A DNA stretch of 64,000 bases from assembly GCA_001414325.1 (NCBI GenBank), contig LLKB01000006.1:62001-126000 (forward strand), read 5' to 3'. The notes beneath the pieces were generated by a model that saw only the letters and a list, made by a program, of their open reading frames with translations, did no database searches and was not told the origin of the DNA. This stretch comes from Butyribacter intestini. Its GTDB lineage: Bacteria > Bacillota > Clostridia > Lachnospirales > Lachnospiraceae. Positions 22,663-60,652 of this stretch are shown one piece after another; position 1 is the first letter of the stretch, and each line of letters starts with the position of its first letter. Position numbers and translations under genes: made by a program.

Positions 22663-22704
22663 TGTACTCTCGGAATTCTTCATTCAGAAGATTCTGGGAG
22701 TACA
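22663..22704 (-). repeat. 5'-UTR palindromic hairpin family, copy A (cvfB leader)
   Basis: The 42-nt near-perfect palindrome has arms TGTACTCTCGGAAT and ATTCTGGGAGTACA (two wobbles) plus inner TCTTC/GAAGA pairing. It ends 27 nt before the proposed TTG start. Relatives are at 40894, 51643, 58526 and 60584. Confidence 0.75.
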
Positions 22705-22754
22705 TTTTGTTAAGTTGACAATAAGTTGCCAGAGTTTTGTATTAAAAATAAGTA

Positions 22755-22801
22755 TAACAGTTCAGTTTTTCATTTGTTATGTTATTATTGCTGAACTGTT
22801 A
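22755..22801. repeat. Short AACAGTTCAG inverted-repeat element
   Basis: TAACAGTTCAG (22755-22765) and CTGAACTGTTA (22791-22801) are exact inverted repeats around 25 AT-rich nt. The same ends bound the larger element at 51231-51418. Single or degenerate arms occur at 42826 and 25758. Confidence 0.65.
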
Positions 22802-22843
22802 CAAATAAGTATATAATTTTTACAAAAAAAAATCCAGTTAAAA

Positions 22844-22872
22844 TTGAAATTTGTGCAAAATTGCGTTATACT
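22844..22872 (+). promoter_or_regulatory. Predicted sigma-A promoter upstream of ridA
   Basis: TTGAAA (22844-22849) and TATACT (22867-22872) are separated by 17 nt. The distance to ridA (about 310 nt) is long, so it may also drive an unrecognised small RNA. Confidence 0.55.
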
Positions 22873-23188
22873 GTAAATTGTAGGAAAATTTATGTAAATT
22901 TAATAATATTAAACAAGCAGCAGAGCAGGTCACAGATATCCACCTGACTGATACTAAAGCAAACATATTAAAAAGTTAGTGTGAAATATTCCATATATGC
23001 AAGAATTTTCATACTATGTACAAAAAACATGTGTAGAAATGAAGGTTAATATTATATGGATTAAAACAAAAAACGGATAAGCGTGGAGCTGATATGGTGA
23101 AAATCATTATACATATCAAATTGTGTGATTAACAAAAATATATAGTTTGACGATTATCTAAGACAAAAACAGAAAAGAGGTTATTTAA

Positions 23189-23566
23189 ATGAAAAACATT
23201 ATCAGTACAGACAAAGCACCGGCGGCAATAGGACCATATTCTCAGGCAGTTGAAGTAAACGGTCTTGTATTTACATCAGGGGTTGTTCCTATCGACCCTG
23301 CTACGGGAGAACTTGTTACGGGACCGGCTGAAGTTCAGGCAGAGAGAGCTTTTAAGAGTCTTAAGGCACTTCTCGAAGCGGCAGGTTCGTCAACTGCGAA
23401 TGTTATCAAGACAACGGTTTTTATCAGTGATATGAATGATTTTGGCAAGATTAATGAAGTATATGCAAAATATTTTGAAGAGCCATATCCGGCAAGATCA
23501 TGTGTAGAGGTTGCAAGACTTCCTAAGGATGTTGCTATAGAGATAGAGGCTGTAGCCACAAAATAG
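23189..23566 (+). CDS. ridA: RidA-family enamine/imine deaminase
   Basis: RidA hydrolyses reactive enamines and imines (for example 2-aminoacrylate) released by PLP enzymes. It has 125 residues with AGAGG before the ATG. Family markers are GPYSQAVEVNGLVFTSG near the N-terminus and the active-site region EEPYPARSCVEVARLPKDV, whose Arg binds the substrate carboxylate. It is normally a trimer. It is monocistronic or linked to the next gene by a 62-nt gap with no terminator. Confidence 0.93.
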   Translation: MKNIISTDKAPAAIGPYSQAVEVNGLVFTSGVVPIDPATGELVTGPAEVQAERAFKSLKALLEAAGSSTANVIKTTVFISDMNDFGKINEVYAKYFEEPYPARSCVEVARLPKDVAIEIEAVATK

Positions 23567-23628
23567 CTGATTTTTAAGTTACTGCCAATACTAACATTAT
23601 AGACAACAGCATATTAGAGAGGTAGGAT

Positions 23629-24732
23629 ATGGAGAGAATACAGTTGAGAAAACAGCTTATCAAGTGTTGTGTATTTGCAATTTCGCAATTAGTTATTGTA
23701 TCAGGAACATTCATTCTGAAATCCGAAAAGGCAGAGGCGGCTGGCAATAATCTTGCTATATCTATTGCTAACGACTATGTAAATATCAGAAATAAACCAT
23801 CATTAAATGGAAAAGTAAAAGGAAGGCTTTATAGAGGAAGTGCAGTTTATATTACAAGAACATATAAAAACGGATGGGCACTTATAAAAAGCGGAAATTT
23901 CAGAGGATACATAAAAAAAGAATTTCTTGCAACCGGCACAAAGGCTAGACAGCTTGCAAGAAAATATGGAGTCAAATACATAACCGTAAAAAAGAATGTC
24001 GGTGCACTAAATGTGCGGGAAAAGACCAGCAAAAAAGCCAAAATAATTACTTCTATAGGTTCGGGAGAAAGTTTTTATGTAAGAAAATTATGTGGGAAAA
24101 GCTGGGTTCGCATATCTGTTGACGGGGAACAGGGATATGTGGCAAGAAATTATGTCAATCTCAGAGTGAAATATAAGCATCCTGTTTCAATCGCTCAGGT
24201 AAAAGCTGAAGAAAAGAAACAGGAAACTACCACTAAGAAAGATACTACTACAACTAAGAATAGTACAACCACGACAAAGAACAGCACGACTAAAAAAGAC
24301 TCAACTACGACCACGAAAGACAGCACAACATTAAGTGAGGAAACAGATAACACAAATGATACAGCAAAGAAAAAAGTAACCGGAAGCCAAATAGCTAATT
24401 ATGCAAAGAAATTTTTGGGAAATCCGTATAAATATGGAGGAACAAGCCTTACAAATGGAGCAGATTGTTCAGGATTTACACAGAGCATATATAAGGAGTT
24501 TGGATATGATATTCCAAGAACTTCGCTTGAGCAGTCATCGTATGGGACAAAAGTTTCAGTTTCTTCAATAAAACAGGGTGATTTGGTTTTTTATCAGAGT
24601 GGAAAAACAGTTGGTCATGTTGCATTGTATATAGGTGATGGGGAAGTGATTCATGCAAGTAATGAGAAAGACGGCATAAAAATATCAAAAATGAATTACA
24701 GGACGCCGTATTGTATTAGAAGAATTGTCTGA
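23629..24732 (+). CDS. Secreted NlpC/P60 cell-wall endopeptidase with two SH3 domains
   Basis: The 367-residue precursor has a basic start and a hydrophobic helix (residues about 10-32), with a likely cleavage after AEA (37). Two bacterial SH3 domains follow (about 42-102, VNIRNKPSLNGKV; about 117-180, LNVREKTSKKAKI). A Thr/Lys/Ser-rich linker of repeated TTTTK units spans about 198-235. The NlpC/P60 domain has catalytic C280 (GADCSGFTQSIY), H330 (VGHVALYIGDG) and H342 (VIHASN). It should cleave peptide stems of peptidoglycan, as in cell separation enzymes. The DNA encoding the linker is itself repetitive and could vary in length between strains. Confidence 0.88.
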   Translation: MERIQLRKQLIKCCVFAISQLVIVSGTFILKSEKAEAAGNNLAISIANDYVNIRNKPSLNGKVKGRLYRGSAVYITRTYKNGWALIKSGNFRGYIKKEFLATGTKARQLARKYGVKYITVKKNVGALNVREKTSKKAKIITSIGSGESFYVRKLCGKSWVRISVDGEQGYVARNYVNLRVKYKHPVSIAQVKAEEKKQETTTKKDTTTTKNSTTTTKNSTTKKDSTTTTKDSTTLSEETDNTNDTAKKKVTGSQIANYAKKFLGNPYKYGGTSLTNGADCSGFTQSIYKEFGYDIPRTSLEQSSYGTKVSVSSIKQGDLVFYQSGKTVGHVALYIGDGEVIHASNEKDGIKISKMNYRTPYCIRRIV

Positions 24733-24781
24733 CAATTTAAAAGTTAAATGTGAATAGTAAAAACAATTATAAACAAAAAGT

Positions 24782-24942
24782 TGTTGATAACTGACATAAA
24801 ATGTTGATAAGTTTTAGCACAAGGTCATTAATCGACAATAAATTAACATAAAATGTTGATAAATCGACAGTAAAGAGAGCCGTATAATGTCGAAAAATGC
24901 GAAAAAATTGAGTTATGCACTAAGTTATCAACATTATCAACA
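24782..24942. promoter_or_regulatory. Cluster of five TTATCAACA/TGTTGATAA boxes (DnaA-box-like)
   Basis: Exact nonamers are TGTTGATAA at 24782-24790, 24802-24810 and 24854-24862, and TTATCAACA at 24925-24933 and 24934-24942, the last two in tandem. TTATCAACA differs by one base from the DnaA box TTATCCACA. Two copies sit in a longer direct repeat (ACATAAAATGTTGATAA). dnaA and dnaN are not in the window, so this need not be the chromosomal origin. Confidence 0.5.
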
Positions 24943-24948
24943 AAATTG

Positions 24949-24990
24949 AAATCCACAGGTTGTCAATAAAACCTGTGGATTTCTTTTATC
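24949..24990 (+). terminator. Terminator after the box cluster
   Basis: AAATCCACAGGT (24949-24960) pairs exactly with ACCTGTGGATTT (24971-24982), followed by CTTTTAT. Confidence 0.75.
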
Positions 24991-25061
24991 AGACATTTTG
25001 TTAATAACATAACGTAAAGACCAAAAACAGATGGTAATGCAGCAATTTGCATATAAATATG

Positions 25062-25093
25062 CATTGCTATCTACTTTTGACCCTAACATCATA
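25062..25093 (-). repeat. Dispersed intergenic repeat, copy 2
   Basis: This is the reverse complement of the repeat at 2933-2966, sharing the two blocks TATGATGTTAGGGTCAA and AGTAGATAGCAATG with slightly different spacing between them. Confidence 0.7.
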
Positions 25094-25158
25094 ATATGCG
25101 TTTAGTGATAAATGTATAATAAAAAGATGTAAATGATTATATTATTGTGCAATTTTAC

Positions 25159-25187
25159 TTGCTTTTTAAGAAAAAGTGAGGTATAAT
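25159..25187 (+). promoter_or_regulatory. Predicted sigma-A promoter of hpf
   Basis: TTGCTT (25159-25164) and a consensus TATAAT (25182-25187) are separated by 17 nt. The leader to the hpf start is about 25 nt. Confidence 0.75.
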
Positions 25188-25218
25188 AAATTTAACAATT
25201 TGTAAAGGAGTGATAGTC

Positions 25219-25746
25219 ATGAAATTTATTATCAGTGGTAAAAATCTTGATGTAACAGATGGACTTAAAGCAGCAATCGAGGAAAAGATCGGAAAGCTTG
25301 AGAGGTATTTCACTCCGGAAACTGAAGTTCATGTTACCTTGAGTGTAGAGAAAGAAAGACAGAAAATAGAGATTACGATCCCTATGAAAGGAAACATCGT
25401 AAGAGCTGAGCAGGTCAGCGATGATATGTATGTTTCAATAGATTTGGTTGAGGAGGTTATTGAGAGACAGTTACGCAAGTACAAGAACAAGCTTGTTGAC
25501 AAGCAGCAGGCAGCGACAAGCTTAAGCAAAGCATTTATCGAAGAAGAGATAGAAGACGATGATGAGATTAAGATCATCCGTTCAAAGAAGTTCGGCATGA
25601 AGCCTATGGATCCGGAAGAAGCCTGCATCCAGATGGATCTTCTCGGACACAACTTCTATGTATTCCGTAATGCAGCAACAGATGAGGTAAATGTAGTTTA
25701 CAAGAGAAAAGGAAATACATTTGGACTTATAGAGCCTGAGTTTTAA
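25219..25746 (+). CDS. hpf: Long-form ribosome hibernation promoting factor
   Basis: HPF binds the 30S subunit and dimerises 70S ribosomes into inactive 100S particles in slow growth. It has 175 residues from the ATG encoding MKFIISGKNLDVTDGLK (AAAGGAG upstream). The N-terminal S30AE domain (about 1-95) is followed by a linker (EEEIEDDDEIKI). The C-terminal dimerisation domain is KKFGMKPMDPEEACIQMDLLGHNFYVFRN...VVYKRKGNTFGLIEP. The presence of both domains marks the long form. The order hpf-secA-prfB is the same as yvyD-secA-prfB in B. subtilis. Confidence 0.94.
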   Translation: MKFIISGKNLDVTDGLKAAIEEKIGKLERYFTPETEVHVTLSVEKERQKIEITIPMKGNIVRAEQVSDDMYVSIDLVEEVIERQLRKYKNKLVDKQQAATSLSKAFIEEEIEDDDEIKIIRSKKFGMKPMDPEEACIQMDLLGHNFYVFRNAATDEVNVVYKRKGNTFGLIEPEF

Positions 25747-25888
25747 TAAATATAGTAACAGTTAAGCCATAAAAAGATAATTGGCAATACAATGAGCTGT
25801 TACATAAGTAACATAAAATGAAATTAACACTTTGGAGAGAGTGTTACATATATGAAAACAAAAGTATGAAATCGATTTAAGCAAAAGC

Positions 25889-25962
25889 AGTCCCGGAAAA
25901 TTCCGGGACTGTTTATTATGTTGCATGAAAATTCTCATTTCCTACAACATAATAAACAGTCC
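25889..25962 (+). terminator. hpf terminator overlapped by an alternative 18-bp hairpin
   Basis: AGTCCCGGAA (25889-25898) pairs with TTCCGGGACT (25901-25910), giving a compact terminator stem followed by GTTTATTATG. The right arm is also part of GGACTGTTTATTATGTTG (25906-25923), which pairs exactly with CAACATAATAAACAGTCC (25945-25962). The two stems exclude each other. A further stem GAGTCG/CGACTC with TTTATT follows at 26023-26044. Confidence 0.7.
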
Positions 25963-26080
25963 GTGAGGATGTGCATTTCGCGGAAAAGAAATAAATATTA
26001 CGCATTCCGCTCAAGCACAAGGGAGTCGTAAGCGACTCTTTATTCTTGCGGTAGTATAGTGTTTTAGCAAAAAACAAAGG

Positions 26081-26109
26081 TTGAAAAACAAAGTATTTAA
26101 TGATATACT
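26081..26109 (+). promoter_or_regulatory. Predicted sigma-A promoter of secA
   Basis: TTGAAA (26081-26086) and TATACT (26104-26109) are separated by 17 nt, giving a leader of about 48 nt. Because it lies after the hairpins at 25889-26038, those belong to the hpf transcript rather than to a secA leader. Confidence 0.7.
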
Positions 26110-26163
26110 GTAAAATAGTTTTTTTATACAAATAAATAGTAATAATGTATAGGAGTGAAATTC

Positions 26164-28728
26164 ATGAGTGTATTTAGTAAAATTTTCGGTACTCACAGTC
26201 AGCATGAAGTGAAAAGAATTATTCCGATAGTGGATAAAATAGAAGCTCTTGCTCCTGAGTTTGAAAAATTGACAGATGATGAACTTAAGGCGAAAACACC
26301 TGAGTTTAAAGCACGTCTTGAAAAGGGAGAGACATTAGATGATCTGCTTCCTGAGGCATATGCAACAGTCAGAGAGGCAGCAACAAGAGTTCTTGGAATG
26401 AGACATTACCGTGTACAGCTTATCGGTGGTGTGATTCTTCATCAGGGAAGAATTACAGAGATGCGTACAGGTGAAGGTAAAACACTTGTTTCGACACTTC
26501 CTGCATACTTAAATGCATTAGAGGGCAAAGGTGTTCATATCGTTACGGTAAATGATTACCTTGCAAAACGTGATGCTGAGTGGATGGGTCAGGTTCATGA
26601 GTTTCTCGGCCTTACAGTTGGTGTTATCTTAAATTCAATGGACAATGACGAGAGAAGAGAAGCATACAACTGCGATATAACATATGCTACAAACAATGAA
26701 CTTGGTTTTGATTATCTTCGTGACAATATGGTCGTATATAAAGAGGAACTTGTGCAGAGAGAACTTCACTATGCGATTATCGATGAGGTCGATTCAGTAC
26801 TTATTGATGAGGCTAGAACACCACTTATCATTTCAGGACAGAGTGGCAAGTCAACAAAGCTTTACGAAGCTTGTGATATATTTGTTAAACAGCTTACAAA
26901 GGGTACTGCAAAAGAACTTTCAAAGATGGACATCATCATGAACGAGGAAGAGCAGGAAACCGGTGATTATGTTGTTGATGAGAAAGATAAGAATGTAAAC
27001 CTTACTGAAGAAGGCGTAAGAAAAGCAGAGAGATTTTTCCAGGTTAAAAACCTTGCAGATCCGGACAATCTTGAATTACAGCACAACATAAACCTTGCAC
27101 TCAGAGCACATTCTCTTATGTTTAAGGATAAAGATTATGTTGTAAAAGATGATGAGGTACTTATCGTCGATGAGTTTACCGGACGAATCATGCCGGGACG
27201 CCGTTTCTCAGACGGATTACATCAGGCTATAGAAGCAAAAGAACATGTAAAGGTTAAGAGAGAGAGTAAGACACTTGCAACCATTACATTCCAGAACTTC
27301 TTCAATAAATATGCAAAGAAATCAGGTATGACAGGTACAGCTCTTACAGAGGAAAAAGAATTCCGTGACATCTATGAGATGGATGTTGTTGAGGTTCCTA
27401 CAAATCTTCCGGTAGCTCGTATCGATTATGAAGATGCTGTTTATAAGACAAAGGAAGAAAAGTTCAATGCTGTTGTTGCTGATATAGTAGCGGCACACGA
27501 AAAAGGACAGCCTGTACTTGTGGGCACGATAAATATTGACACATCTGAATACCTTAGCGAAAAGCTTAAGAAGAAAGGTATTCCGCATAAAGTTCTTAAT
27601 GCCAAATTCCATGAGCTTGAGGCTGAGATTATTGCCGATGCAGGTCAGATGGGTGCAGTGACAATTGCTACTAACATGGCTGGTCGTGGTACTGATATTA
27701 AGCTTGGCGATGGCGTTAAGGAACTCGGAGGTTTGAAGATAATAGGTACAGAGAGACATGAGTCACGCCGTATCGACAATCAGCTCCGTGGTCGTGCCGG
27801 TCGTCAGGGCGATCCGGGTGAGTCAAGATTTTACATCTCACTTGAGGATGATCTTATGCGTCTTTTCGGTTCAGAGAGACTTATGGGACTTTTCTCAGCA
27901 ATGCCTGATGGTGAGCAGATAGAGCACAAGATGCTTTCAAATGCCATTGAGAGTGCACAGAAGAAGATAGAGGGCAACAACTTTGGTATCAGAAAGAACC
28001 TCCTTGAATTTGACCGTGTAAACAATGAGCAGAGAGAAGTTATCTACAAAGAGCGCCGCAAGGTTCTTGACGGTGAGAATATGAGAGATACTATCTATAA
28101 GATGATAACTGATGTTGTAGAAAAATGTGTTTCTTCGATTATAGGCGATGAGGGTTCTCCTGAGGAATGGGATATTGCAGAGTTAAATAATGTTATCCGT
28201 CCTATAATCCCTATAAAAAAGATAGTTCTTTCAGATGAAGAATTAAAACATGGTTCAAAAGATGAACTTATCCAGAGACTTAAAGAAGAAGCCGTAAAGG
28301 TTTATGAAGCTAAGGAAGCTGAGTTCCCTGAGGCAGACCAGATAAGAGAAGTAGAGAGAATTATCCTTCTTAAAGTTATCGATAGAAAATGGATGGATCA
28401 TATCGACGATATGGATCAGCTCCGTCAGGGTATCGGACTTCAGGCATACGGTCAGCGAGATCCTGTAGTTGAGTACAAATTTGCCGGATTTGAAATGTTT
28501 GATTCGATGATAGATGCAATTACTGAAGAGACTGTAAAAGCACTTACACATATTCAGATAGAGCAGAAAGTTGAGCGTGAACAGGTAGCAAAAGTTACGG
28601 GAACAAACAAAGATGAGACTGTAGCAGCAAAGCCTAAAAAGCGCGAGGGAAGAAAAGTGCAGCCAAACGATCCGTGTCCATGTGGAAGCGGTAAGAAATA
28701 TAAGATGTGCTGCGGAAGAAAATTCTAA
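26164..28728 (+). CDS. secA: Preprotein translocase ATPase SecA
   Basis: SecA drives secretory proteins through SecYEG. It has 854 residues from the ATG encoding MSVFSKIFG (AGGAG upstream); a GTG nine nt earlier is less likely. Walker A MRTGEGKT is near residue 102-109, the DEAD-like box [15 protein letters not shown] near 210, and GTDIKLG and RQGDPGES mark the second motor domain. The C-terminal SEC-C metal-binding tail ([17 protein letters not shown]) is intact. It is followed by prfB after 27 nt. Confidence 0.96.
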
Positions 28729-28755
28729 AAAGTTTTAATAGAAAGAGGTGAGTTG

Positions 28756-29875
28756 ATGGTAGAATTTGATAATATCAGGATAGCATTATCAAATTACGAT
28801 GAACCACTGCTTGAAATGGGGAACTCACTTTGACTTAGCTAATAAGCGTGACAGAGTCGAAGAGTTAGAGCATACTATGGAAGAGCCGGGATTTTGGGAT
28901 GATCCAAATAAATCGGCAGCAGTTGTTCAGGATTGTAAAAAGTTAAAGACGACTATCGAGAGATATGAGAAACTTTGCAATGACAAAGATGATACACTTA
29001 CACTTATAGACATAGCCGAGGAGGAAAATGATGCAAGTCTTCTGCCTGAGGTGGAGGAGTCGTTTAATGCCTTTGAGGAAGAATATAATGCACTCAGGAT
29101 AGAGACATTATTAAGTGGTGAATATGATAAATGCAATGCTATACTTACGCTTCATGCAGGAGCAGGCGGAACAGAGAGTTGCGACTGGGCGAGTATGCTA
29201 TGCAGAATGTACCAGCGGTGGGCTGAGAAAAAAGGTTTCAATGTTGAGATGATAGATTTTCTTGACGGTGATGAGGCCGGCTACAAATCAGTTACATTGC
29301 AAATAGACGGTGAAAATGCGTATGGTTATCTGAAATCAGAACATGGTGTGCACCGTCTTGTTAGGATTTCTCCGTTCAATGCGGCAGGAAAAAGACAGAC
29401 TTCTTTTGTATCATGTGATGTGATGCCTGATATAGAGGAGGATCTTGATGTTGAGATTGCAGATGATGATATCAGGATAGATACATATCGTTCAAGTGGT
29501 GCAGGTGGACAGCATATAAACAAGACCTCATCGGCAATACGAATCACGCATTTTCCAACCGGAATCGTGGTACAGTGTCAGAATGAGCGTTCCCAGCATA
29601 TGAATAAAGATAAAGCCATGCAGATGCTTAAGGCAAAGCTCTATATGCTTAAACAACAGGAGCAGCTTGAAAAGGCGAGCGGTATCCGTGGCGAGGTCAA
29701 GGATAACGGCTGGGGCAGTCAGATTCGTTCATATGTAATGCAGCCTTACACTATGGTAAAAGACAACAGAACAGGTCAGGAAGTAAGTAATGTGGCAGGA
29801 GTGCTGGATGGAAATCTTGATCCGTTTATAAATGCATATCTTGCATGGATTACATCGACAGACAAACAGAACTAA
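28756..29875 (+). CDS. prfB: Peptide chain release factor 2, with programmed +1 frameshift
   Basis: RF2 reads UAA and UGA stops. The first frame starts at ATG 28756 (GAGGTGAG upstream) and runs 25 codons to an in-frame TGA at 28831-28833 in the context CTTTGAC. Reading resumes at +1 from GAC 28832 (DLANKRDRVEELEHTM) to 29875, a total of about 373 residues. This is the classic autoregulatory RF2 frameshift. GGGG upstream could serve as the stimulatory Shine-Dalgarno, though at 6 nt before CTT it is farther than the usual 3. The catalytic GGQ is in SSGAGGQHINKTSSA. The gene is intact; the break is not a pseudogene mark. Confidence 0.95.
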
Positions 29876-29890
29876 GAGATGGAGGATGAG

Positions 29891-31105
29891 ATGGTAAAAG
29901 TAGGAATATTAGGATATGGTACAGTAGGTTCAGGTGTTTTTGAGATATTAGATAAAAACAGCAATATAATATCAAAGAGAGCAGGTCAGGATATAGAAGT
30001 AAAATATGTACTTGACCTCAGGGATTTTCCGGGAGATCCGGCAGAAAAATATGTTGTGCATGATTTCTCAATCCTTGAAAATGACGATGAAGTAAAGATT
30101 GTTGTCGAAACAATGGGAGGACTTCATCCTGCATATGAATTTGTTAAGGCAAGTCTTCTTAAAGGAAAAAATGTCGTAACATCAAACAAAGCACTTGTTG
30201 CTTCATTTGGTACCGAACTTTTACAGATTGCAAGAGATAAAAATGTAAACTTTTTATTTGAGGCAAGTGTAGGTGGTGGTATTCCTATCATAAGACCACT
30301 TCAGACATCTTTAGCTCCTGATGAGATAGATGAGATTTCAGGTATCTTAAACGGTACAACAAACTTTATTCTTACTGAGATGACAGAAAACGGTTCTGAC
30401 TTTGACTCAGTTCTTAAGGATGCACAGGCAAAAGGATATGCGGAAGCTGATCCGACGGCAGATGTTGAGGGATATGATGCGTGCCGTAAGATTGCTATTC
30501 TCACATCACTTGCATATGGAAAGCAGCTTGACTTTGAGGATATTTATACAGAGGGTATCACAAAGATAACTGACAGGGATATTAAATATGCTGCAAAGCT
30601 TAAGGCAAAAGTTAAGATATTTGGTTCAAGTAAATTAGCAGGGGATAAAGTAAGTGCGATGGTAGCACCAAAACTTATCACACATGACCATCCACTCTAC
30701 AGTGTTGACGGAGTGTTTAATGCTATCCTTGTAAAAGGAAACATGGTCGGGGATGTAATGTTTTATGGTCAGGGAGCAGGTAAGCTTGCAACAGCAAGTG
30801 CGGTTGTCTCTGATATTATGGAGGCATCAGAAAATCTTGACAATAACATCAATGTCATCTGGTCAGATGAGAAACTTGAGCTTATGCCTATGGATGAAGT
30901 AGTTTCTAAATTCTTTGTAAGAGTATCAGGAAACAAAGCTGATAACGAAGCAAAGATAAAAGAATTATTCGGCGAGGTTGAGTTTGTTGATGCAGGTTAT
31001 GATGATGAGACAGGTTTTGTAACAAAAGATATCACTGAAGCAGTATATGAAAATGCTGCAAAAGAGATTGGCAGTGTTATAAATAAGATTCGTTTTGATG
31101 CGTAA
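29891..31105 (+). CDS. hom: Homoserine dehydrogenase with C-terminal ACT domain
   Basis: This enzyme reduces aspartate semialdehyde to homoserine on the threonine/methionine pathway. It has 404 residues from ATG 29891 (GGAGG upstream). The NAD-binding motif GILGYGTVGSGV is at the N-terminus. The catalytic domain contains GGGIPIIRPLQ, GILNGTTNFIL and YAEADPTADVEGYDACRKIAILTSLAY. The C-terminal 80 residues (SKFFVRVSGNKADNEAKIKELFG) form an ACT domain, implying feedback by threonine. The preceding prfB ends 15 nt upstream, so readthrough transcription is likely. Confidence 0.94.
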   Translation: MVKVGILGYGTVGSGVFEILDKNSNIISKRAGQDIEVKYVLDLRDFPGDPAEKYVVHDFSILENDDEVKIVVETMGGLHPAYEFVKASLLKGKNVVTSNKALVASFGTELLQIARDKNVNFLFEASVGGGIPIIRPLQTSLAPDEIDEISGILNGTTNFILTEMTENGSDFDSVLKDAQAKGYAEADPTADVEGYDACRKIAILTSLAYGKQLDFEDIYTEGITKITDRDIKYAAKLKAKVKIFGSSKLAGDKVSAMVAPKLITHDHPLYSVDGVFNAILVKGNMVGDVMFYGQGAGKLATASAVVSDIMEASENLDNNINVIWSDEKLELMPMDEVVSKFFVRVSGNKADNEAKIKELFGEVEFVDAGYDDETGFVTKDITEAVYENAAKEIGSVINKIRFDA

Positions 31106-31153
31106 AACATACAAAATAGTTAGCACGGAAAAATTTAATCGTTTATAATATTT

Positions 31154-31185
31154 ACAACAGGCGGCTATTTTATAGCCGTCTGTTG
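31154..31185 (+). terminator. Hairpin after hom
   Basis: ACAACAGGCGGCTA (31154-31167) pairs with TAGCCGTCTGTTGT (31172-31185), with one mismatch. The T-tract is poor (GTGTGTTT). Confidence 0.6.
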
Positions 31186-31277
31186 TGTGTTTAGAGAAAA
31201 AGTGTTTCCTGCTATATATAGGTGTGGACAGGAACACTGTTTATGGGCAGAAAATGTGCATAGAAATGGAGATTATC

Positions 31278-38317: not shown

Positions 38318-38324
38318 TGGGTGT

Positions 38325-38588
38325 TGTAAAGTTAAGTTTTTCGTGCGACAATGAAGTTTTTGTTGTAAAATTTGTTCATATGTTAATAAATTTTTTTTGC
38401 TGTAAAGTTAAGTTTTTCGTGCGACAATGAAGTTCTTGTTGTAAAATTTGTTCATATATTAATAAAGTTTTTTTGTTGTAAAGTTAAGTTTTTCGTGCGA
38501 CAATGAAGTTTTTGTTATAAAATTTGTTCATATGTTAATAAATTTTTTTGTTGTAAAGTTAAGTTTTTTGTATGCTAATGAAGGTTTT
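38325..38588. repeat. 76-bp tandem repeat array (three units plus a partial)
   Basis: Units start at TGTAAAGTTAAGTTTTT at 38325, 38401, 38477 and 38552, giving periods of 76, 76 and 75 bp. Each unit carries CGTGCGACAATGAAG, then TTGTAAAATTTGTTCATAT and TTAATAAA with a T-run. Units differ by only a few substitutions, and the fourth decays after about 36 nt. No repeat-spacer structure is present, so it is not a CRISPR. Confidence 0.9.
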
Positions 38589-38715
38589 ATTAAAGCTCAT
38601 TTTTTTATTGATTTTTGAATAAATGTTTTGTATAATGTATATATAAATTTGCTGGTTATGTTTAAATGATTAGTGATTTTGTACAAAAATATCGTTACAT
38701 ATATTTTAGGTGTTT

Positions 38716-40871: not shown

Positions 40872-40893
40872 GAGTTCCTCCTTGTTGTTTAAT

Positions 40894-40934
40894 GTGCTCT
40901 CGAAAGTATTCGTTTTGAGAAGATACCGAGAGTA
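40894..40934 (-). repeat. 5'-UTR palindromic hairpin family, copy B (ktrA leader)
   Basis: On the + strand it reads TGCTCTCG...TACCGAGAGTA, with inner ATTCG and GAGAAGATACC similar to copy D. It ends 22 nt before the ktrA start codon and is in the opposite orientation, relative to its gene, from copy D. Confidence 0.7.
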
Positions 40935-40969
40935 AATTTTAATGTACTAGCTAGTGTGCTGGCATGTTG

Positions 40970-42794: not shown

Positions 42795-42987
42795 CACTTA
42801 TTTTGAAAAAATTTAAAAAAATTGGTAACAGTTCAGCCTGCTCGTAAAAACTTGCAACTAATACCGGCAATGTGATATAAATATAAGAGGATTATAAATT
42901 AGTATTTGTTATAGCAGCAGAATTAACAAAACATATAATAGTTTCACAAAAAGTGATATAAATGCATTTAAAAAATTGGAGGTCAGC

Positions 42988-50855: not shown

Positions 50856-50874
50856 ACATTTAAGGAGGTTTTAT

Positions 50875-51192: not shown

Positions 51193-51230
51193 GTTGTTCA
51201 CTGATTAAAATTAAAAATCTGTGTGGTTTT

Positions 51231-51418
51231 ATGTAACAGTTCAGCACAAAAAAGATAAGTCAATAATACATGAGCTTGCTCAATGTATTATTGACTTGTT
51301 TTTTGGGGCGGAATAGCCTTTCATTTATGAAATGAAGTAAACTTAAGCTGCATAGCAGCGACTGACAGCTTGCTGGCAGGTTTACGAATGTAATAAATGA
51401 AAGGCTGAACTGTTACAT
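51231..51418. repeat. 188-bp element with 15-bp terminal inverted repeats, containing a terminator and a branched fold
   Basis: The ends are ATGTAACAGTTCAGC (51231-51245) and GCTGAACTGTTACAT (51404-51418), exact inverted repeats. Inside, arms AAGTCAATAATACAT (51257-51271) and ATGTATTATTGACTT (51283-51297) with a T-run to 51304 form a terminator. The rest is enclosed by GCCTTTCATTTAT (51316-51328) and ATAAATGAAAGGC (51393-51405), then GTAAAC/GTTTAC, with two small hairpins (GCTGC/GCAGC; CAGC/GCTG). No frame is present. The 51419-51597 stretch after it is plain AT-rich DNA. Confidence 0.65.
51257..51304 (+). terminator. Terminator of the acidic small protein gene
   Basis: 15-nt exact arms 51257-51271 and 51283-51297, an 11-nt loop, then GTTTTTTG. 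It lies inside the larger inverted-repeat element. Confidence 0.8.
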
Positions 51419-51597
51419 TTTATATCGGACTGCACAGATTTTTTTTGCATTTTTTAAGATTTTCTGTTATAATATGCAAATATTTGTTCGTGTCAGTTTG
51501 CTGCTGATATTTATTTTGTTCTGATATATACAGTTTTGTTATGTGAAAATTAAGAACAACAGACAGACGGCAGATAGTGATTTATTAATAGGGAGTT

Positions 51598-51625: not shown

Positions 51626-51642
51626 AATTACCTGTGATTTAA

Positions 51643-51670
51643 TCTACTCTCGGAAGATACCGGGAGTAGA
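51643..51670 (+). repeat. 5'-UTR palindromic hairpin family, copy C (parE leader)
   Basis: TCTACTCTCGG, then AAGATA, then CCGGGAGTAGA: a short version with the same stem but without the middle part. It ends 23 nt before the parE start. Confidence 0.75.
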
Positions 51671-51693
51671 TATTTATTAAAATGGAGGGCGTA

Positions 51694-53625: not shown

Positions 53626-53643
53626 TAATTTAAGGAGAATAAA

Positions 53644-55896
53644 ATGAAAACAAAGGAACAACCAATTATTCAGCTTGATTTCTCTGAGGAGATGAGAAAT
53701 TCATATAGAGATTATGCGATGAGTGTTATCATAGCGAGAGCACTTCCTGATGTCAGGGACGGTTTGAAACCTGTTCAGAGAAGGATTCTTTATGCTATGG
53801 ATGAGCTTTCACTTGCACCTGACAAACCCCACAGAAAGAGTGCTCGTATTGTCGGTGATACGATGGGTAAGTATCATCCTCACGGTGACAGCTCCATCTA
53901 TGATGCACTTGTGCATATGACGGAGGAGTATTCGCTTTCACTGCCGCTTGTTGACGGACACGGAAATTTCGGTTCGATAGACGGTGACGGTGCGGCAGCT
54001 ATGCGATACACTGAGGCAAGACTGTCAAAGACTGCGATGACGATGCTTGAAAATCTCGATAAAGGTCTTGTGCCGTTTGGACCAAACTTTGATGAGAGTG
54101 AAAAAGAGCCTCTCGTTCTTCCGGCAACACTGCCAAATCTCCTCATAAACGGAACAACGGGAATTGCAGTCGGAATGGCAACCAATATGCCGCCGCACAA
54201 TCCGGGCGAAGTTATAGACGGAGTTATCGCATATATGGATAATCCGGAGATTTCCACAAAAGGACTTATGAAATACATAAAAGGACCTGATTTTCCGACA
54301 GGTGCGGCGATAACAAACACGGATGATTTGTTTGATATATATGACACGGGCGAGGGAAAGATAAAACTTCGTGCAAAAGCCGAGATAGAAAACGGTACAA
54401 ATGGAAGAAAAAATATAGTTGTAACCGAGATACCGTACACCGTCGCAGGAAACAAGACAAAACTTCTTGAAAATCTTGTGTCACTTTCAAAAGATAAGGT
54501 GTTTGATGAGATATATGATGTGCGTGACGAGTCATCAAAAGAGGGAATAAGGATAGTAGTAGAAGTTAAAAAAGACAGAAATGCAGAAAACCTCTTAAAC
54601 GGACTTTACCAGAAAACAGCACTTGAAGACACATACGGCGTAAATATGCTTGCCGTAAAAGATAAGCAGCCTATAACATTTACATTAAAAGGACTTGTAC
54701 AGGAATTTGTGGAATTTCAGGAAGAACTTTACACAAAAGAGTACGAGCATCTTTTAGAAAAAGCAAAGGCAAGACTTGAGATAGTAGCAGGTCTTATAAA
54801 AGCAACAGATGTGATAGACCTTATCATAGAGATACTTCGTGGAAGCAATTCCGTAAAACAGGCGAAAAACTGTCTTATAAACGGAGTTACGACCGATATA
54901 AAATTCAAGTCTCAGAAATCAGAAAAGGCAGCAGCAAAACTTGATTTTACAAAAAATCAGGCAGATGCGATACTTGCGATGCCTTTAAGTAAACTTATCG
55001 GACTTGAACTTTTAAAGCTTCATCAGGAAAACGATCAGCTTCTTTCAAATATAGAAGAATACAACAACATACTTGGAAATATAGTTGAATTGCACAAAGT
55101 AATAAAGAAAAGGCTTAAAAATTATAAAAAGCAGTTTGGCAGAGGAAGACGCACAATACTCACAAATATGGACGCAGGAAAATATGTTGAGGAAGTAAAA
55201 GAAGAAGACCTCTATGTACTTATCGACAGATTTGGTTATTGCAAATCGGTGGACGAGTCAAGTTATTCGAGAATATCGGCTGAATCATTAAAAGAATACA
55301 CGCACAAGCTACAGATAAGAAACACTGACAAACTCTGTGTATTCACGAAAAACGGATTTATGCATCAGATAAAAATGTCAGCGGTACCAAAAGGAAGAAA
55401 CAGGGATAAGGGTGTACTTATCCAGTCACTATGCAAACTTGGAAACGATGAAGTGCTTATATATATAGCATTTGAAGACCTGTTTAACTCACAGCTTTTA
55501 TTTGCTACAAAAAACGGACTTGTAAAACTTGTATCTGGAATAGAGTTTGAAACGATACGCTCAACTATAAATGCAACAAAGCTCGATGATGGAGACGAAC
55601 TTATAGCAGTCAGACCGCTAAGTGATGAAGAATCCATCTCAGAAGACAGCAGTGTAGTCATAATAACCCACAAAGAAGCATCGCTGAGATTTCCGCTCTC
55701 ACAGGTAAATGAACTGAAGAAAGCCAGCAAGGGAGTAAAGGGAATAACGATGGCAGCAGATGATTATGCGTGGTATGCGGAGGTTATCTCAAAAGAAACT
55801 GAGACGATTGAGCATGACGGAAAGAAATTTTCGGCAAAGAAGATAAAAATACGAAAAAGGAATGACAAGGCATCGAGGTCGAAGATAAGGGAGTAA
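53644..55896 (+). CDS. parC: Type IIA DNA topoisomerase cleavage subunit (ParC/GyrA family)
   Basis: It has 750 residues. The catalytic tyrosine is Y122 in [11 protein letters not shown], and the quinolone-determining stretch [16 protein letters not shown] has Ser at 83, the sensitive state by E. coli numbering. A winged-helix core and coiled coil (about 330-470) are followed by a C-terminal beta-pinwheel. The GyrA box (QRRGGRG-like) that lets gyrase wrap DNA is not seen, which fits decatenating topoisomerase IV. The tail is Lys/Arg rich ([16 protein letters not shown]). Likely cotranscribed with parE. Confidence 0.85.
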
Positions 55897-56003
55897 AATT
55901 TCTCCGGTTAGGGTATTGAAACCTAAATTGATTTTTGATACCATAAGAAGTGGTATATTTACTAACAAAGCAAAAGACCGGCTTTAAGAAAGGATGACAC
56001 AAC

Positions 56004-57272
56004 ATGAAAAAGACACCATTTGTAACAAAAGAACAGATTGAAGAAATAGCAAAAACATACCCTACACCTTTTCACATCTACGATGAAAAGGGCATCAGAG
56101 AAAATGCGCGCAGACTTAAAAAGGCATTTTCATGGAACAAAGGTTATCGTGAGTATTTTGCGGTAAAGGCAACTCCAAACCCATTTATCTTAAAACTTCT
56201 CCAGGAAGAGGGATGCGGTGTTGATTGTTCATCACTCACGGAGCTTATGATGTCAGAGGCTTGCGGCTTTAAGAATGACGATATAATGTTTTCATCAAAT
56301 GTTACACCGGCAGCCGAGTACAAAAAAGCAAAAGAACTCGGTGCATATATAAACCTTGATGATATTACACATATAGATTTCCTCGACGAAACAGCAGGAA
56401 TCCCTGAAACTATCTGTTGTCGTTACAATCCAGGCGGAGTGTTTAAGATGGGAACAGACATAATGGACAACCCTGGAGATGCCAAGTATGGCATGACAAA
56501 AGAGCAGATGATAGAAGCTTTCAAGAGACTTAAATCAATGGGAGCAAAATATTTCGGAATACATTCATTCCTTGCCAGTAATACAGTAAGCAATGATTAC
56601 TATCCTACACTTGCAGGAATCCTCTTTGAACTCGCTGTAGAGCTTAAAGAAAAGACAGGAGTTGAGATTAAGTTCATCAACCTCTCCGGTGGTGTCGGAA
56701 TCCCTTATACAGAGGATAAAGAGCCAAACGATATAGCAATTATCGGTGAGGGTGTACACAAGAAATTTGATGAGATAATGGTACCGGCAGGAATGGGAGA
56801 TGTGGCAATATTTACAGAGCTTGGGCGTTTCATGCTCGCACCATATGGCGGACTCGTAACAAAAGCAATTCATGAAAAACATATATACAAAGAGTATATT
56901 GGAGTTGATGCCTGTGCGGTAAACCTTATGCGTCCTGCAATGTACGGTGCATATCACCACATCACGGTACTCGGCAAAGAAAATGAGCCATGCGACCACA
57001 AATACGATGTAACAGGTTCACTCTGTGAAAACAATGATAAATTTGCCATTGACCGTATGCTTCCAAAGATTGACATGGGAGATTATCTCTTTATACATGA
57101 TGCAGGAGCACACGGATTTTCGATGGGCTACAACTACAACGGTAAATTAAAATCAGCAGAACTTCTCCTCAAAGAGGACGGAAGTGTTCAGATGATAAGA
57201 CGTGCTGAGACACCAAAGGATTACTTTGCAACATTTGATTTCTGCGACATACTCAAAGATGTTAAATATTAA
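56004..57272 (+). CDS. lysA: Diaminopimelate decarboxylase
   Basis: This PLP enzyme makes lysine from meso-diaminopimelate. It has 422 residues. The PLP-binding lysine is K55 in YFAVKATPNP. GVDCSSLTELMMS, NLSGGVGIPY and the phosphate-binding GEG region follow, and the acidic GVDACAVNLMRPAMYGAYHH block holds the Cys of the second subunit's site. A hairpin with ATACCA/TGGTAT at about 55939-55956 lies upstream; no lysine riboswitch fits in the 107-nt gap. A strong terminator follows. Confidence 0.92.
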   Translation: MKKTPFVTKEQIEEIAKTYPTPFHIYDEKGIRENARRLKKAFSWNKGYREYFAVKATPNPFILKLLQEEGCGVDCSSLTELMMSEACGFKNDDIMFSSNVTPAAEYKKAKELGAYINLDDITHIDFLDETAGIPETICCRYNPGGVFKMGTDIMDNPGDAKYGMTKEQMIEAFKRLKSMGAKYFGIHSFLASNTVSNDYYPTLAGILFELAVELKEKTGVEIKFINLSGGVGIPYTEDKEPNDIAIIGEGVHKKFDEIMVPAGMGDVAIFTELGRFMLAPYGGLVTKAIHEKHIYKEYIGVDACAVNLMRPAMYGAYHHITVLGKENEPCDHKYDVTGSLCENNDKFAIDRMLPKIDMGDYLFIHDAGAHGFSMGYNYNGKLKSAELLLKEDGSVQMIRRAETPKDYFATFDFCDILKDVKY

Positions 57273-57364
57273 AAAGTAAGAAAATGTTATGCAATACAAT
57301 ATGCGGACTTAAGTATTGACAATTATTAAACTGTTGCGGATTTGTTCAAATTGCATAAAAAGAA

Positions 57365-57399
57365 AAAAAGACACCGGTAAAATTTGGCGGTGTCTTTTT
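57365..57399 (+). terminator. Terminator of lysA
   Basis: AAAAAGACACCG (57365-57376) and CGGTGTCTTTTT (57388-57399) are exact inverted repeats with the T-run in the right arm. Confidence 0.9.
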
Positions 57400-57419
57400 G
57401 AATTATATCTGAATACAGG

Positions 57420-57447
57420 TAAAGTTTTTTTTACTTAAGGTCGATAA
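57420..57447 (+). promoter_or_regulatory. Sigma-D (sigma-28) type promoter of the flgM operon
   Basis: TAAA (57420-57423), 16 nt, GTCGATAA (57440-57447). The spacing equals that of the rod operon promoter at 4812. In B. subtilis, flgM is also sigma-D dependent, giving feedback through the anti-sigma factor. Confidence 0.65.
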
Positions 57448-57547
57448 ATAGTATGAAAATGAAATTTACACATATTATCTGTGTTGAAAATACAGATAAT
57501 ATGTTGTGGAATCTTTAAATCACAAGTTTTGATTAGGTGGTGATAAT

Positions 57548-57826
57548 ATGAGGATAGATGCATTAAATCAGGTAAGTCAGTTATACCAGACGAGCAAACC
57601 TAAAAAAGTATTAAAGAACAAAGAAAACGATACATCAGACAAATTTGAAATATCGCAGTCAGCAAAGGATTACCAGACAGCAAAGGCAGCAGTAAAAACT
57701 TCTTCCGATATCAGGGAGGACAAAGTTGCTGAACTTAAAGAAGCTGTTACGAGTGGTACTTACAATGTATCAGCGGCAGAAATTGCAGACAAGATGGTAG
57801 GTAAATACTTCGATTCGATTTTTTAG
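57548..57826 (+). CDS. flgM: Anti-sigma-28 factor FlgM
   Basis: FlgM has 92 residues and binds the flagellar sigma factor until the hook is finished, when it is exported. The N-terminus MRIDALNQVSQLYQ is typical and mostly disordered. The C-terminal helices (REDKVAELKEAVTSGTYNVSAAEIADKMVG) are the sigma-binding part. A GGTGGTG site precedes the ATG. It is first in the operon flgM-flgN-flgK-flgK2-flgL. Confidence 0.93.
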   Translation: MRIDALNQVSQLYQTSKPKKVLKNKENDTSDKFEISQSAKDYQTAKAAVKTSSDIREDKVAELKEAVTSGTYNVSAAEIADKMVGKYFDSIF

Positions 57827-57855
57827 AGTAAGCCGTTGGCAGTGGATGCCCCGGT

Positions 57856-58389
57856 ATGAAAAAAGAGGAAAAAGATTTGGCTAGTTTAATGGATGAACTC
57901 CTTGAGGTTTTATCAGAGGAGAGAGATATTTATGAAGAGCTTGCACCAATATCGGAGAAAAAAACGCAGGTGCTTATAAAAGAGGATTTAAAAGAGCTCA
58001 AAAAGATTACTGACAAAGAACAGTTACTTGTTGACAAAGTAAGTATTGTTGACAGGAAAAGGGAAAAAGTCATTCAGAATATAAGCGTTGTTTTAAATAA
58101 GGATTCAAAGGAATTGGATCTTGCCACACTTGGCAATATATTATGTAAGCAGCCGGATGAGCGTAAAAAGCTCAATATGCTTCATGACTCGCTGAGACAG
58201 GTTATGAACAGGCTGGTGATTGCCAATCAGAAAAATAAAGAACTTATAGAAAATTCCCTAGAAATGATAGAGTTCAATATGAACTATATTAAAAGCACAA
58301 GGATGTCGCCGGGAAATAACAATTATAATCGCAATGCCGCTACAAGCTACACAGATTCAAGCAGAGGCGGATTTGATGCAAAACAGTAG
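57856..58389 (+). CDS. flgN: Flagellar export chaperone FlgN
   Basis: FlgN has 177 residues and is almost entirely helical (LMDELLEVLSEERDIYEELAPISEKKTQ-like heptads). It keeps FlgK and FlgL soluble and delivers them to the export gate. The C-terminal 35 residues (SPGNNNYNRNAATSY...) are polar and disordered. It lies between flgM and flgK as in other Firmicutes. The ribosome site before ATG 57856 is weak (CCCCGGT), so translation may depend on coupling with flgM, 29 nt upstream. Confidence 0.88.
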   Translation: MKKEEKDLASLMDELLEVLSEERDIYEELAPISEKKTQVLIKEDLKELKKITDKEQLLVDKVSIVDRKREKVIQNISVVLNKDSKELDLATLGNILCKQPDERKKLNMLHDSLRQVMNRLVIANQKNKELIENSLEMIEFNMNYIKSTRMSPGNNNYNRNAATSYTDSSRGGFDAKQ

Positions 58390-58443
58390 TTCTTACGGAG
58401 TATATTCTTAAAGATGCATGGTTTTAAAAACTATGCATTAGGA

Positions 58444-58508
58444 GTGTACAGCGTATAGCTATAAGCATCTGATAAGATTATGATTATACGGTGTACATTC
58501 TTTTTTTG
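58444..58508 (+). terminator. Terminator-like hairpin between flgN and flgK
   Basis: GTGTACAGCGTATA (58444-58457) pairs with TATACGGTGTACAT (58485-58498) at 12 of 14 positions, followed by TTCTTTTTTTG. A smaller palindrome ATGCATGGTTTT/AAAACTATGCAT is at 58414-58438. Some transcripts probably end here, so flgK and flgL would get less message than flgM and flgN. Confidence 0.6.
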
Positions 58509-58525
58509 ATTTAAACTATAAAAGA

Positions 58526-58563
58526 TGCTCTCAAAATTCTTCGTTCAGAAGATACCGGGAGTG
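58526..58563 (+). repeat. 5'-UTR palindromic hairpin family, copy D (flgK leader)
   Basis: TGCTCTCAAAATTCTTCG, then TTCAGAAGATACCGGGAGTG. Very similar to copy B. It ends 24 nt before the flgK start. Confidence 0.75.
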
Positions 58564-58587
58564 AATTAAAGAGTATGGAGGAAAAAG

Positions 58588-60573
58588 ATGAGCTTATTCG
58601 CAAGTTTACAAAACGGGGTTTCCGGATTAAATGCTGCATCATCGGGTCTTAACACGACAGCACACAATCTTGCCAATACAAAGACAGCAGGATATACGAG
58701 GCAGCAGACAATCCAGAAGGATATGTATTATCAGACTTTCAAAGTATCAAATAATGGTGCTATGAAGATAGGAATGGGAACATATGTCGCAGATGTGCGT
58801 CAGATAAGAGATATGTTTCTTGATAAAGAGTACAGATTGCAGGTCAGCAGACAGACATTCTATGAAAAACAGGTTGAATGTGAGCAGGAAGTAGAGGACA
58901 TCTTCGGTGAAAATGAGGGTGTAGAGTTTAGAAACTCTATGGAAAGTATGTGGGAAGCTATTCAGAACCTGTCAACAAATCCTGAAAGTGTAGTAAACAG
59001 ACAGCTTTTTATAGCACAGTGCGAATCATTTATAGAAACAGCAAAAAATGCTTATACAGCCATTACAAAGTATCAAAGCGGATTGAATACGGAAGTGGCG
59101 AAACAGGTAAAAGAAGTAAATGATATAGCAGACAAGATAGCAGCATTAAATAAGACGATAGCTGAAAAGGAGGCATCCGGTGTTGAAAATGCCAATGATT
59201 ACCGTGATCAGCGAAATCTTCTCATGGATGAACTTGCAAAATATACATACTATACCTACAACGAAGATATAGATGGCAAAGTTCAGATATATATAAACAA
59301 TGCACCACTGGTTATAGAGACAAAGGCATTTCATATGAAAACGGAAAGTGCCACACAGACAGGTCTTTATAATGTTGTATGGGAAAGTAATGGTTTCGGA
59401 GATGTCTACAAGCAGGATGAAGCGTATTCGACAGCTAAAAAGACAGATACAGGTACACTTTACGGAATACTTACGGCAAGAGGAAATAAAAATGCAGTTT
59501 ACAGTGATGTTCCACAGCAGCCCGATCCAAATGATAAAAAGTATCTGAATGCGGATGGTTCGTTCAATCAGACATTATATGATACAGATTATGGCAAATA
59601 TAAAGACAAGGTTGAGCTTTACAACAACACTATAGGAAATTCAATACTTACACAGGCAGAAGCACAGTTTGACCTTCTTATAAATGGAGTTGTAACAATG
59701 TTAAATGATGTGTTCTGCCCAAATCTAAAGGATAAAAATGATGATGACAGGATTACGATAAAAAGTGCAGTTGAGGGTACAACAAAAGATGCAAACGGCA
59801 ATGATATAACATTTAAGCTCGATACATCCAAAAAATATAAGCTGCTTGATGTCACGAACAGCCCGGTAGGAGCAGATGATGATGAAACTATCGGAACAGA
59901 GCTGTTTGTCAGAACAGGTATGTCAAGATATACAAAGATAACTCTTGACCATCAGGTTTATTCCGACAGCTGTGTAGATTCAGACGGAAATCCGCTGGGA
60001 CTTGCGAAAGACAATGGCGATGGAACATATACATTATATGTTTACAATGAAGAAAATGTATCAATAGAACAAGACAAGACAGACGGCAAATATACATATA
60101 ATTATCATGATGATAAAGACGGTTACACTGACAAGACAACAATGTACACTATCACAAATCTTCAGATAAATCCTGATATACTTGCTGATTATTCGCTTTT
60201 GCCGGTAAAGGAAAATTCAACCGGAGGAGATTCAGGTGCATATGCACAGGATATATATCAGAAAATTCTCACGGCATGGAAGTCAGATTTTGCAGTGCTT
60301 GACCCAAATACCAAAACTTCATATACATTTGATGAATATTACAATGAAATGATAGGAAACTTTGGTACAAGAGGAAGTGTATGGCAGACGATAGTAGATA
60401 ATCAGGAAAAAGAAGTACAACAGGATGAGGAAAAGCGTCAGCAGATAGCCGGTGTATCAACGGACGAAGAACTTGCAAGCCTTTTGACTTACCAGCACGC
60501 GTACAACGCAGCGTCGAGATATATAAATGTAGTAAATCAGATGCTTGAACATCTGCTTGAAAGACTCGGATAA
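58588..60573 (+). CDS. flgK: Hook-associated protein 1, FlgK (first paralogue)
   Basis: FlgK forms the hook-filament junction with FlgL. It has 661 residues. The N-terminal SLFASLQNGVSGLNAASSGL...HNLANTKTAGYTRQQ and C-terminal SLLTYQHAYNAASRYINVVNQML are diagnostic. The coiled-coil region near 150-200 (NTEVAKQVKEVNDIADKIAAL) is intact. A variable surface domain occupies about residues 280-560. A second, divergent FlgK follows directly, so the two may form the junction together or replace each other. Confidence 0.9.
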   Translation: MSLFASLQNGVSGLNAASSGLNTTAHNLANTKTAGYTRQQTIQKDMYYQTFKVSNNGAMKIGMGTYVADVRQIRDMFLDKEYRLQVSRQTFYEKQVECEQEVEDIFGENEGVEFRNSMESMWEAIQNLSTNPESVVNRQLFIAQCESFIETAKNAYTAITKYQSGLNTEVAKQVKEVNDIADKIAALNKTIAEKEASGVENANDYRDQRNLLMDELAKYTYYTYNEDIDGKVQIYINNAPLVIETKAFHMKTESATQTGLYNVVWESNGFGDVYKQDEAYSTAKKTDTGTLYGILTARGNKNAVYSDVPQQPDPNDKKYLNADGSFNQTLYDTDYGKYKDKVELYNNTIGNSILTQAEAQFDLLINGVVTMLNDVFCPNLKDKNDDDRITIKSAVEGTTKDANGNDITFKLDTSKKYKLLDVTNSPVGADDDETIGTELFVRTGMSRYTKITLDHQVYSDSCVDSDGNPLGLAKDNGDGTYTLYVYNEENVSIEQDKTDGKYTYNYHDDKDGYTDKTTMYTITNLQINPDILADYSLLPVKENSTGGDSGAYAQDIYQKILTAWKSDFAVLDPNTKTSYTFDEYYNEMIGNFGTRGSVWQTIVDNQEKEVQQDEEKRQQIAGVSTDEELASLLTYQHAYNAASRYINVVNQMLEHLLERLG

Positions 60574-60583
60574 AACATATAAA

Positions 60584-60652
60584 TGTACTGTCAGTATCTT
60601 CTAAGAACGAATCTATCTCAGAATTTTTCCTTTAGAAGCTGCCGGGAGTACA
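60584..60652 (+). repeat. 5'-UTR palindromic hairpin family, copy E (second flgK leader)
   Basis: TGTACTGTCAGTATCTTCT at the left and AGAAGCTGCCGGGAGTACA at the right enclose about 30 nt that include a second CGAAT/ATCTCAGAAT part, so it looks like two fused or expanded copies. It ends 24 nt before the start codon. Confidence 0.65.

Follow-up and report, generated by a model that had tools for sequence, protein, structure and literature searches.

The subject of this analysis is a family of palindromic hairpins in a 64,000-nucleotide stretch of the Butyribacter intestini genome (the window; assembly GCA_001414325.1, contig LLKB01000006.1, positions 62,001 to 126,000 of the forward strand), in which an earlier reading of the letters alone (the sequence-only reading) had placed five copies in the leaders of genes. 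All five are present (Table 1), and they very probably represent a non-autonomous, palindromic element resembling a miniature inverted-repeat transposable element (MITE), which is moved in trans and inserts at a fixed offset before a purine motif of the Shine-Dalgarno (SD) type. The products of insertion are the ends of the element, a 4-bp (sometimes 5-bp) duplication of the target and a preferred distance from the element edge to the start of GGAGG, here called the register, such that GGAGG typically starts 11 nt from the edge, which places it 7 nt past the 4 bp that are duplicated.

The whole host genome (3.61 Mb) was searched with two queries, one long copy and a covariance model built from 17 short ones, giving 71 merged places for the element family. 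This set includes weak model matches up to an E value of ∼4, window copy 5 was added from its known position, and two members (C1:381046 and C5:548249, as contig and position) are probably chance matches or much decayed copies; an end-pattern search gave six more single ends, which were left outside it. In full-length form the element is a palindrome of ∼155–178 nt, put at about 161–163 nt for the mobile unit, with ends ATGTACTCTCGG...CCGAGAGTACAT. Several near-identical 161-nt copies in the host carry these inverted ends around a central CGTAC...GTACG-type hairpin, a copy of this type folds end to end (−69.8 kcal/mol, z = −11.5), and full-length copies reach 99% identity to their own consensus. 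Copy length spans 30–277 nt in the host and 49–233 nt in two other carriers, genome G346 and the Clostridiaceae isolate C65_88_CS_BP; the 277-nt copy (C5:1276068-1276344; locus L137, 4069-4345) holds an extra internal insert of ∼115 nt. Internally deleted forms of about 30–71 nt are common, and the short hairpins (42–46 nt in the window) appear to be internal deletions of the full-length unit, because the shared TCTCG is found both in the left end and within the right end. The sequence-only reading had described one copy as reduced to the stem; copy 3 is indeed the shortest, a stem of 30 nt, but copy 5 must be corrected to a longer deletion form, a 71-nt intermediate, all of them coming from one larger element. 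The 44-nt consensus hairpin has a folding energy of −23.6 kcal/mol (z = −6.6). The pattern CTCTCGGAATTCTTC with up to two mismatches matched 33 times genome-wide versus 12 for a reversed control, and ATGTACTCTCGGWATCTTCT with up to three mismatches 87 times versus 1 for its control; one chance pattern match (L025, C5 at about 196860) is surrounded by CRISPR-like repeats, GTTCTCGTCCCCTCGTTGGGGAT.

Among the clean-ended copies of the host, 25 of 54 have four identical bases on both sides, where 1.8 are expected from shuffled flanks. In C65_88_CS_BP a 4-bp repeat flanks 21 of 34 paired copies (0.8 expected), and the 14 paired copies of G346 include three with 4-bp and four with 5-bp repeats (0.6 and 0.3 expected). 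Direct repeats of 4 or 5 bp also flank window copies 2–5, with none at copy 1. A second genome of the same genus, taken as Eubacterium sp. MSJ-13, has no element in the ortholog leaders of parE, flgK and the second FlgK_D1 gene, the SD and start being kept (the comparison covered these three of the five window genes), and of 28 genomes searched within the genus by blastn (E ≤ 0.001) only this one and the host have the element. The copies are short (below ∼500 nt) and, as judged from length only, without coding capacity; intact ones have ATGTACTCTCGG-like sequence at both ends; and target duplications are found in both the host and C65_88_CS_BP, all as in a MITE. Given the 4-bp duplication and the deletion forms of one palindrome with inverted ends, we regard the element as MITE-like and mobile. 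The earlier suggestion of a tiny palindromic mobile repeat is thereby borne out by the duplications, the shared inverted ends and the ∼71 places in the host.

To assess placement, the best match to AAGGAGG was sought at registers 4–59 on either side of each copy, with ties broken at random and 20,000 random intergenic positions of the same DNA as control. This best match falls at register 10–12 in 51 of the 71 host copies, versus 5.3% of the random positions. An SD (at least 5/7) followed by a start codon is found at 65 of the 71, the remainder being five weak cases and one without a start codon, as scored by a script that favors sites having a start codon through a bonus. A preference for start-proximal positions, the absence of which had been set beforehand as a refuting outcome, thus holds. 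The conserved distance to the start codon noted previously was right in that copies pile up close to starts, but the tighter distance is to the SD motif: across the 65 copies the register has a standard deviation of 0.90, versus 1.83 for the distance to the start codon, and 40 copies lie at exactly 11. The same relation is found in C65_88_CS_BP (27 of 34 copies with SD and start; 0.87 versus 2.10) and in G346 (9 of 14; 0.68 versus 1.45). Placement is thus anchored to the SD core rather than to the start codon. The distal flank of the host copies showed no second such motif; a count of 68 of 71 from the same scan is a best-of-many maximum without a control of its own, 51 of 71 being the controlled figure. 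By eye, five of the six extra single ends have a GGAGG-like motif at 11, the exception, at C1:56998, having none that fits.

Other genera carry elements with the same ends, register and duplication. The short-hairpin model (E ≤ 0.01) gave matches in 17 of 397 genomes of the family, several of them weak and some chance-like (L231–L233 and L237 have no fitting SD). Clear relatives, judged by eye, are present in G346, G249, G252, G204, G222, G391 and G042, with GGAGG or a close form at about 10–13 and often with 4–5-bp repeats. With up to two mismatches, element ends number 104 in G346 (control 4) and 150 in C65_88_CS_BP (control 0). From these two genomes stretches were picked by their ends (mostly seemingly unpaired ones, plus some pairs) and not by the SD, and the best motif match is at register 10–12 in 10 of 14 and 27 of 34 paired copies, respectively. 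A Lachnospiraceae metagenome-assembled genome (G425) has five paired copies, each having on one of its sides a register-11 motif that scores 6/7 or 7/7, and one further unpaired end with the motif at 14. In C65_88_CS_BP, 3 of 23 full-length copies are identical to the consensus, all three at register 11, and the five youngest host copies have registers of 11, 11, 13, 11 and 11. That consensus-identical and youngest copies are already in register suggests that insertion itself establishes it. Among viral, phage and plasmid collections, one match fell by chance within a phage gene, a longer pattern had none, IMG/VR held one element in one contig, and plasmids gave no match. Two unannotated "Bacteriophage sp." clones from human feces, MT838758.1 (L327) and MT838754.1 (L328), hold one full and one partial element match, and may be bacterial fragments.

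Copies at an AAGGAGG-like motif that lacks a start codon were flagged by the script at 1 of 71 places in the host, 7 of 34 in C65_88_CS_BP and 4 of 14 in G346, and on closer inspection one, five and three of these, 9 of the 12, are firm. Those set aside were L320, where an ATG overlaps the motif, L311, where an ATG 17 nt past the motif opens a 161-codon frame, and L273, which has no real GGAGG-like match. By eye, several start-less sites are terminator-like hairpins, of the form TTAAGGAGnC...GnCTCCTTAA in the host and AAAAGAGGGAATC...GATTCCCCCTT in G346. Two sites in C65_88_CS_BP are of other kinds: at L299 a truncated copy at a GGAG motif (5/7, register 10) adjoins the broken upstream edge of a frame for glycosyl hydrolase family 3, whose Pfam match begins at position 240 of 316, and a rearrangement is possible there; at L323 a start-less copy identical to the consensus has a coding-looking frame on one side, and this insertion may lie in coding DNA. 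Since a small number of copies hold the register where no start codon follows the motif, the target would seem to be a DNA motif, most often represented by the SD.

These placements also bear on the proposal of the sequence-only reading that the hairpin is a functional structure of the mRNA leader, acting in translation, in RNA stability or as a binding site for a regulator and held by selection at a constant spacing to the start codon. The position of 65 of 71 copies just before an SD and start would fit such a role, as would features of the stem itself. The 17 short host copies pair slightly above shuffles (91.7% versus 90.4 ± 0.6, 24/500; covariation score, 8/500), and across lineages 17 full-length sequences pair in 94.9% of cells, versus 88.9% in shuffles. 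Between lineages 53 cells of the full-length unit are changed on both sides, versus 21.4 ± 4.5 in shuffles, a count inflated by relatedness; the numbers of doubly changed pairs (9; shuffles 7.2) and of additional pair types (17; shuffles 21.5) are unremarkable. The double changes are mostly from one Watson-Crick pair to another, with few G-U, which would fit maintenance at the level of DNA. In the 58 host copies with usable ends, read in the mRNA sense, terminal-stem mispairs are 54 G-U versus 45 A-C (p = 0.42), and with no bias between the two there is no sign of an RNA fold kept after insertion. Stems decaying without compensation had been named as evidence that would count against a functional structure, and within the host this is nearly the case, clear compensation being confined to the full-length unit between lineages. 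Together with the tighter distance to the SD, the start-less sites and consensus-identical copies that are in register, the presence of the element in so few genomes of the genus, and five window targets that are mostly unrelated genes (identified from the Pfam domains CvfB, TrkA_N/TrkA_C, gyrase-B-type and FlgK), these data make a functional leader hairpin most improbable, and the earlier proposal is not sustained.

Several observations weigh against insertion in trans at a purine motif. The best motif match lies outside register 10–12 in 20 of 71 host copies, the exact 4-bp duplication is missing in 29 of the 54 clean-ended copies, the repeats in G346 vary between 3, 4 and 5 bp, and the carriers examined, with complete end lists for 6 of 14, yielded neither a copy bearing a transposase nor a matching transposase. 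Moreover, host copies are divided 40 to 1 between SD and start-less sites, versus 162 to 36 for intergenic GGAGG sites (Fisher p = 0.008; both site counts are from the DNA retrieved, and the 162 include the insertion targets themselves). With the SD over-represented among host insertions, a rule based on the motif only is incomplete, and context or selection plays some part: the excess over other GGAGG may be due to A-rich surroundings, to accessibility or to selection after insertion. The same preference would be expected if insertion were random and selection had then purged almost every copy not lying just outside the ribosome footprint, as would the absence of all 71 places from the interior of genes predicted by our own gene finder. 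Positions 30–200 nt upstream or behind stop codons should be equally harmless, yet one register dominates, it is already present in consensus-identical copies, and it is kept at purine motifs without a start codon. We therefore consider random insertion followed by selection very unlikely.

The search for an autonomous partner with matching ends gave none in the host, in the presumed Eubacterium sp. MSJ-13 or in Falcatimonas sp. MSJ-15 (full place lists, with flanking DNA read in part), none among the 100 ends listed (of 104) for G346, and none among the 100 listed (of 150) for C65_88_CS_BP, where 40 stretches were read. Places were listed for 7 of 10 ends in G222 and for none of those in G130, G252, G204, G249 and G042. 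Two ends lying 4.4 kb apart in G425 proved to be two separate small copies. IS3-type elements have TGTACTG ends, and an IS3-type partner was set aside: the rve domain (PF00665) is present in seven of eight carriers, with none in Falcatimonas sp. MSJ-15, and no matching ends were seen in 30 of 41 loci read. In C65_88_CS_BP a broken piece of an IS91-type zinc-ribbon transposase (Zn_Tnp_IS91, PF14319; L295, 3099-3579) is joined to a truncated element copy. An IS91-type partner was likewise rejected, and since tblastn over 358 loci revealed no second case, the adjacency may be coincidence.

Among known systems, Tn7 and Tn7-like elements also insert at a fixed offset from a recognized sequence and spare the gene, but they encode their own protein machinery, use one attachment site per genome and make a 5-bp duplication. 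Transposition of single strands by the IS200/IS605 type is not known to make a target duplication, nor is the insertion of REPINs. The element has duplications of 4–5 bp, and its ends and placement differ, so that a REPIN-like unit moved by a RAYT (tyrosine transposase) is extremely improbable, although REPINs too are inverted doublets that fold into a hairpin, occur in many extragenic copies and are thought to be moved in trans; the part of the source available describes REP-type ends and a link to RAYT and mentions no target duplication (PMC3116915). BOX, RUP and SPRITE are small dispersed structured repeats of Streptococcus pneumoniae; BOX and RUP share inverted ends and target duplications with the element, whereas the sequence and host are different and no fixed SD offset is described in the sections available (PMC3049150). 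A parallel in placement is the IS1202 family of "dif site hunters", which lie a fixed 5 bp from the XerC site with TGT...ACA ends and 3–5-bp duplications (PMC10132070). The element likewise has a fixed small distance from a recognized motif and short duplications (4 bp, some 5); its TGT...ACA has an extra outer A...T in nearly all copies, and it occurs in both orientations at an SD-like target, whereas the Acinetobacter members encode a transposase of 441–457 aa, take one orientation and target XerC/dif (PMC10132070). No gene for an IS1202-family DDE transposase was present in the copies read, no search aimed elsewhere in the genomes being made. With an extra A...T at the ends and no transposase seen, we do not file the element in the IS1202 family; it behaves like a MITE that has the site discipline of these dif-hunting elements. 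An orientation rule was considered, since host copies of at least 100 nt are divided 13 to 3 according to which end faces the SD (n = 16, p = 0.02), but is not claimed because C65_88_CS_BP gives 14 to 11, with 2 unclear. At the gathering score Rfam recognizes only a tRNA in the window, and nine related loci gave only sub-threshold matches, mostly to microRNA hairpin models. Among the papers listed in searches of open-access literature we found no account of SD-directed insertion, or of this sequence as a bacterial repeat, in agreement with the earlier statement that no described family has the hairpin sequence.

What follows on the enzyme, on target recognition and on the benefit of the site is inferred. 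A transposase acting in trans would pair two ATGTACTCTCGG ends, recognize the A-rich-to-GGAGG purine motif in the target DNA and make cuts staggered by 4 nt, 7 nt upstream of GGAGG. Insertion 11 nt upstream would leave the SD and start codon intact, and since most intergenic motifs of this kind are SDs, many harmless sites, a "safe haven", would be available. A requirement in transposition, or conversion between its arms, might preserve the hairpin in the mobile unit, and after insertion it would mostly decay. That the target selector reads the SD motif itself, possibly through RNA pairing with an anti-SD-like guide, and is run by a resident gene outside the element ends is an unlikely variant. 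If insertion at the purine motif is correct, the use of a ribosome-binding motif as a landing address would be a bacterial safe-haven strategy with very many sites per genome, in contrast to the dif sites of the IS1202 elements and the single site of Tn7. Placed ∼11 nt ahead of the SD in dozens of genes, a strong hairpin could, moreover, rewire 5′ leaders genome-wide.

The element can also mislead the prediction of gene starts and riboswitches. Its placement suggests better starts for two window genes, TTG 22635 for cvfB and ATG 51694 for parE, in which the ATG at 51682 lies upstream of the SD. With the edge taken as ...ACAT, the gaps from hairpin to start are 26 (to TTG), 20, 22, 21 and 23 nt; the near-constancy reported before is real, the values given then (27, 22, 23, 24 and 24) resting on slightly different edges.

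Table 1. Element copies in the window and the SD motifs that they precede
Feature	Window position	Strand	Form	Leader or gene	Flanking duplication	Register	Start codon
Element copy 1	22662..22705		44-nt deletion form	cvfB (minus strand)	no exact target duplication found		
GGAGG (SD)	22646..22650	−		cvfB		11 from copy 1	TTG 22635-22633
Element copy 2	40892..40937		46 nt	TrkA_N/TrkA_C (KtrA-like) gene (minus strand)	TTTA		
GGAGG (SD)	40877..40881	−		KtrA-like gene		10 from copy 2	ATG 40871-40869
Element copy 3	51642..51671		30 nt, stem only	gyrase-B-type gene (parE)	ATTTA		
GGAGG (SD)	51684..51688	+		parE		12 from copy 3	ATG 51694 (likely)
Element copy 4	58523..58566		44 nt, left edge degraded	flgK	TAAA		
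GGAGG (SD)	58577..58581	+		flgK		10 from copy 4	ATG 58588
Element copy 5	60583..60653		71-nt deletion form, both ends kept	second FlgK_D1 gene	ATAA		
GGAGG (SD)	60665..60669	+		second FlgK_D1 gene		11 from copy 5	ATG 60677

Other repeats were seen nearby. A 76-nt unit is present in four tandem copies at window positions 38322-38624, two of them 95–99% and one 61% identical to the reference copy. Another dispersed repeat, whose core is GTAACAGTTCAGC or its complement, occurs at 22777-22821, 42798-42837, 51214-51258 and 51391-51420, and again near C5:1071500 of the host genome. Finally, a hairpin at 11702-11754 has 26-nt arms that are 96% complementary, separated by a 1-nt gap.

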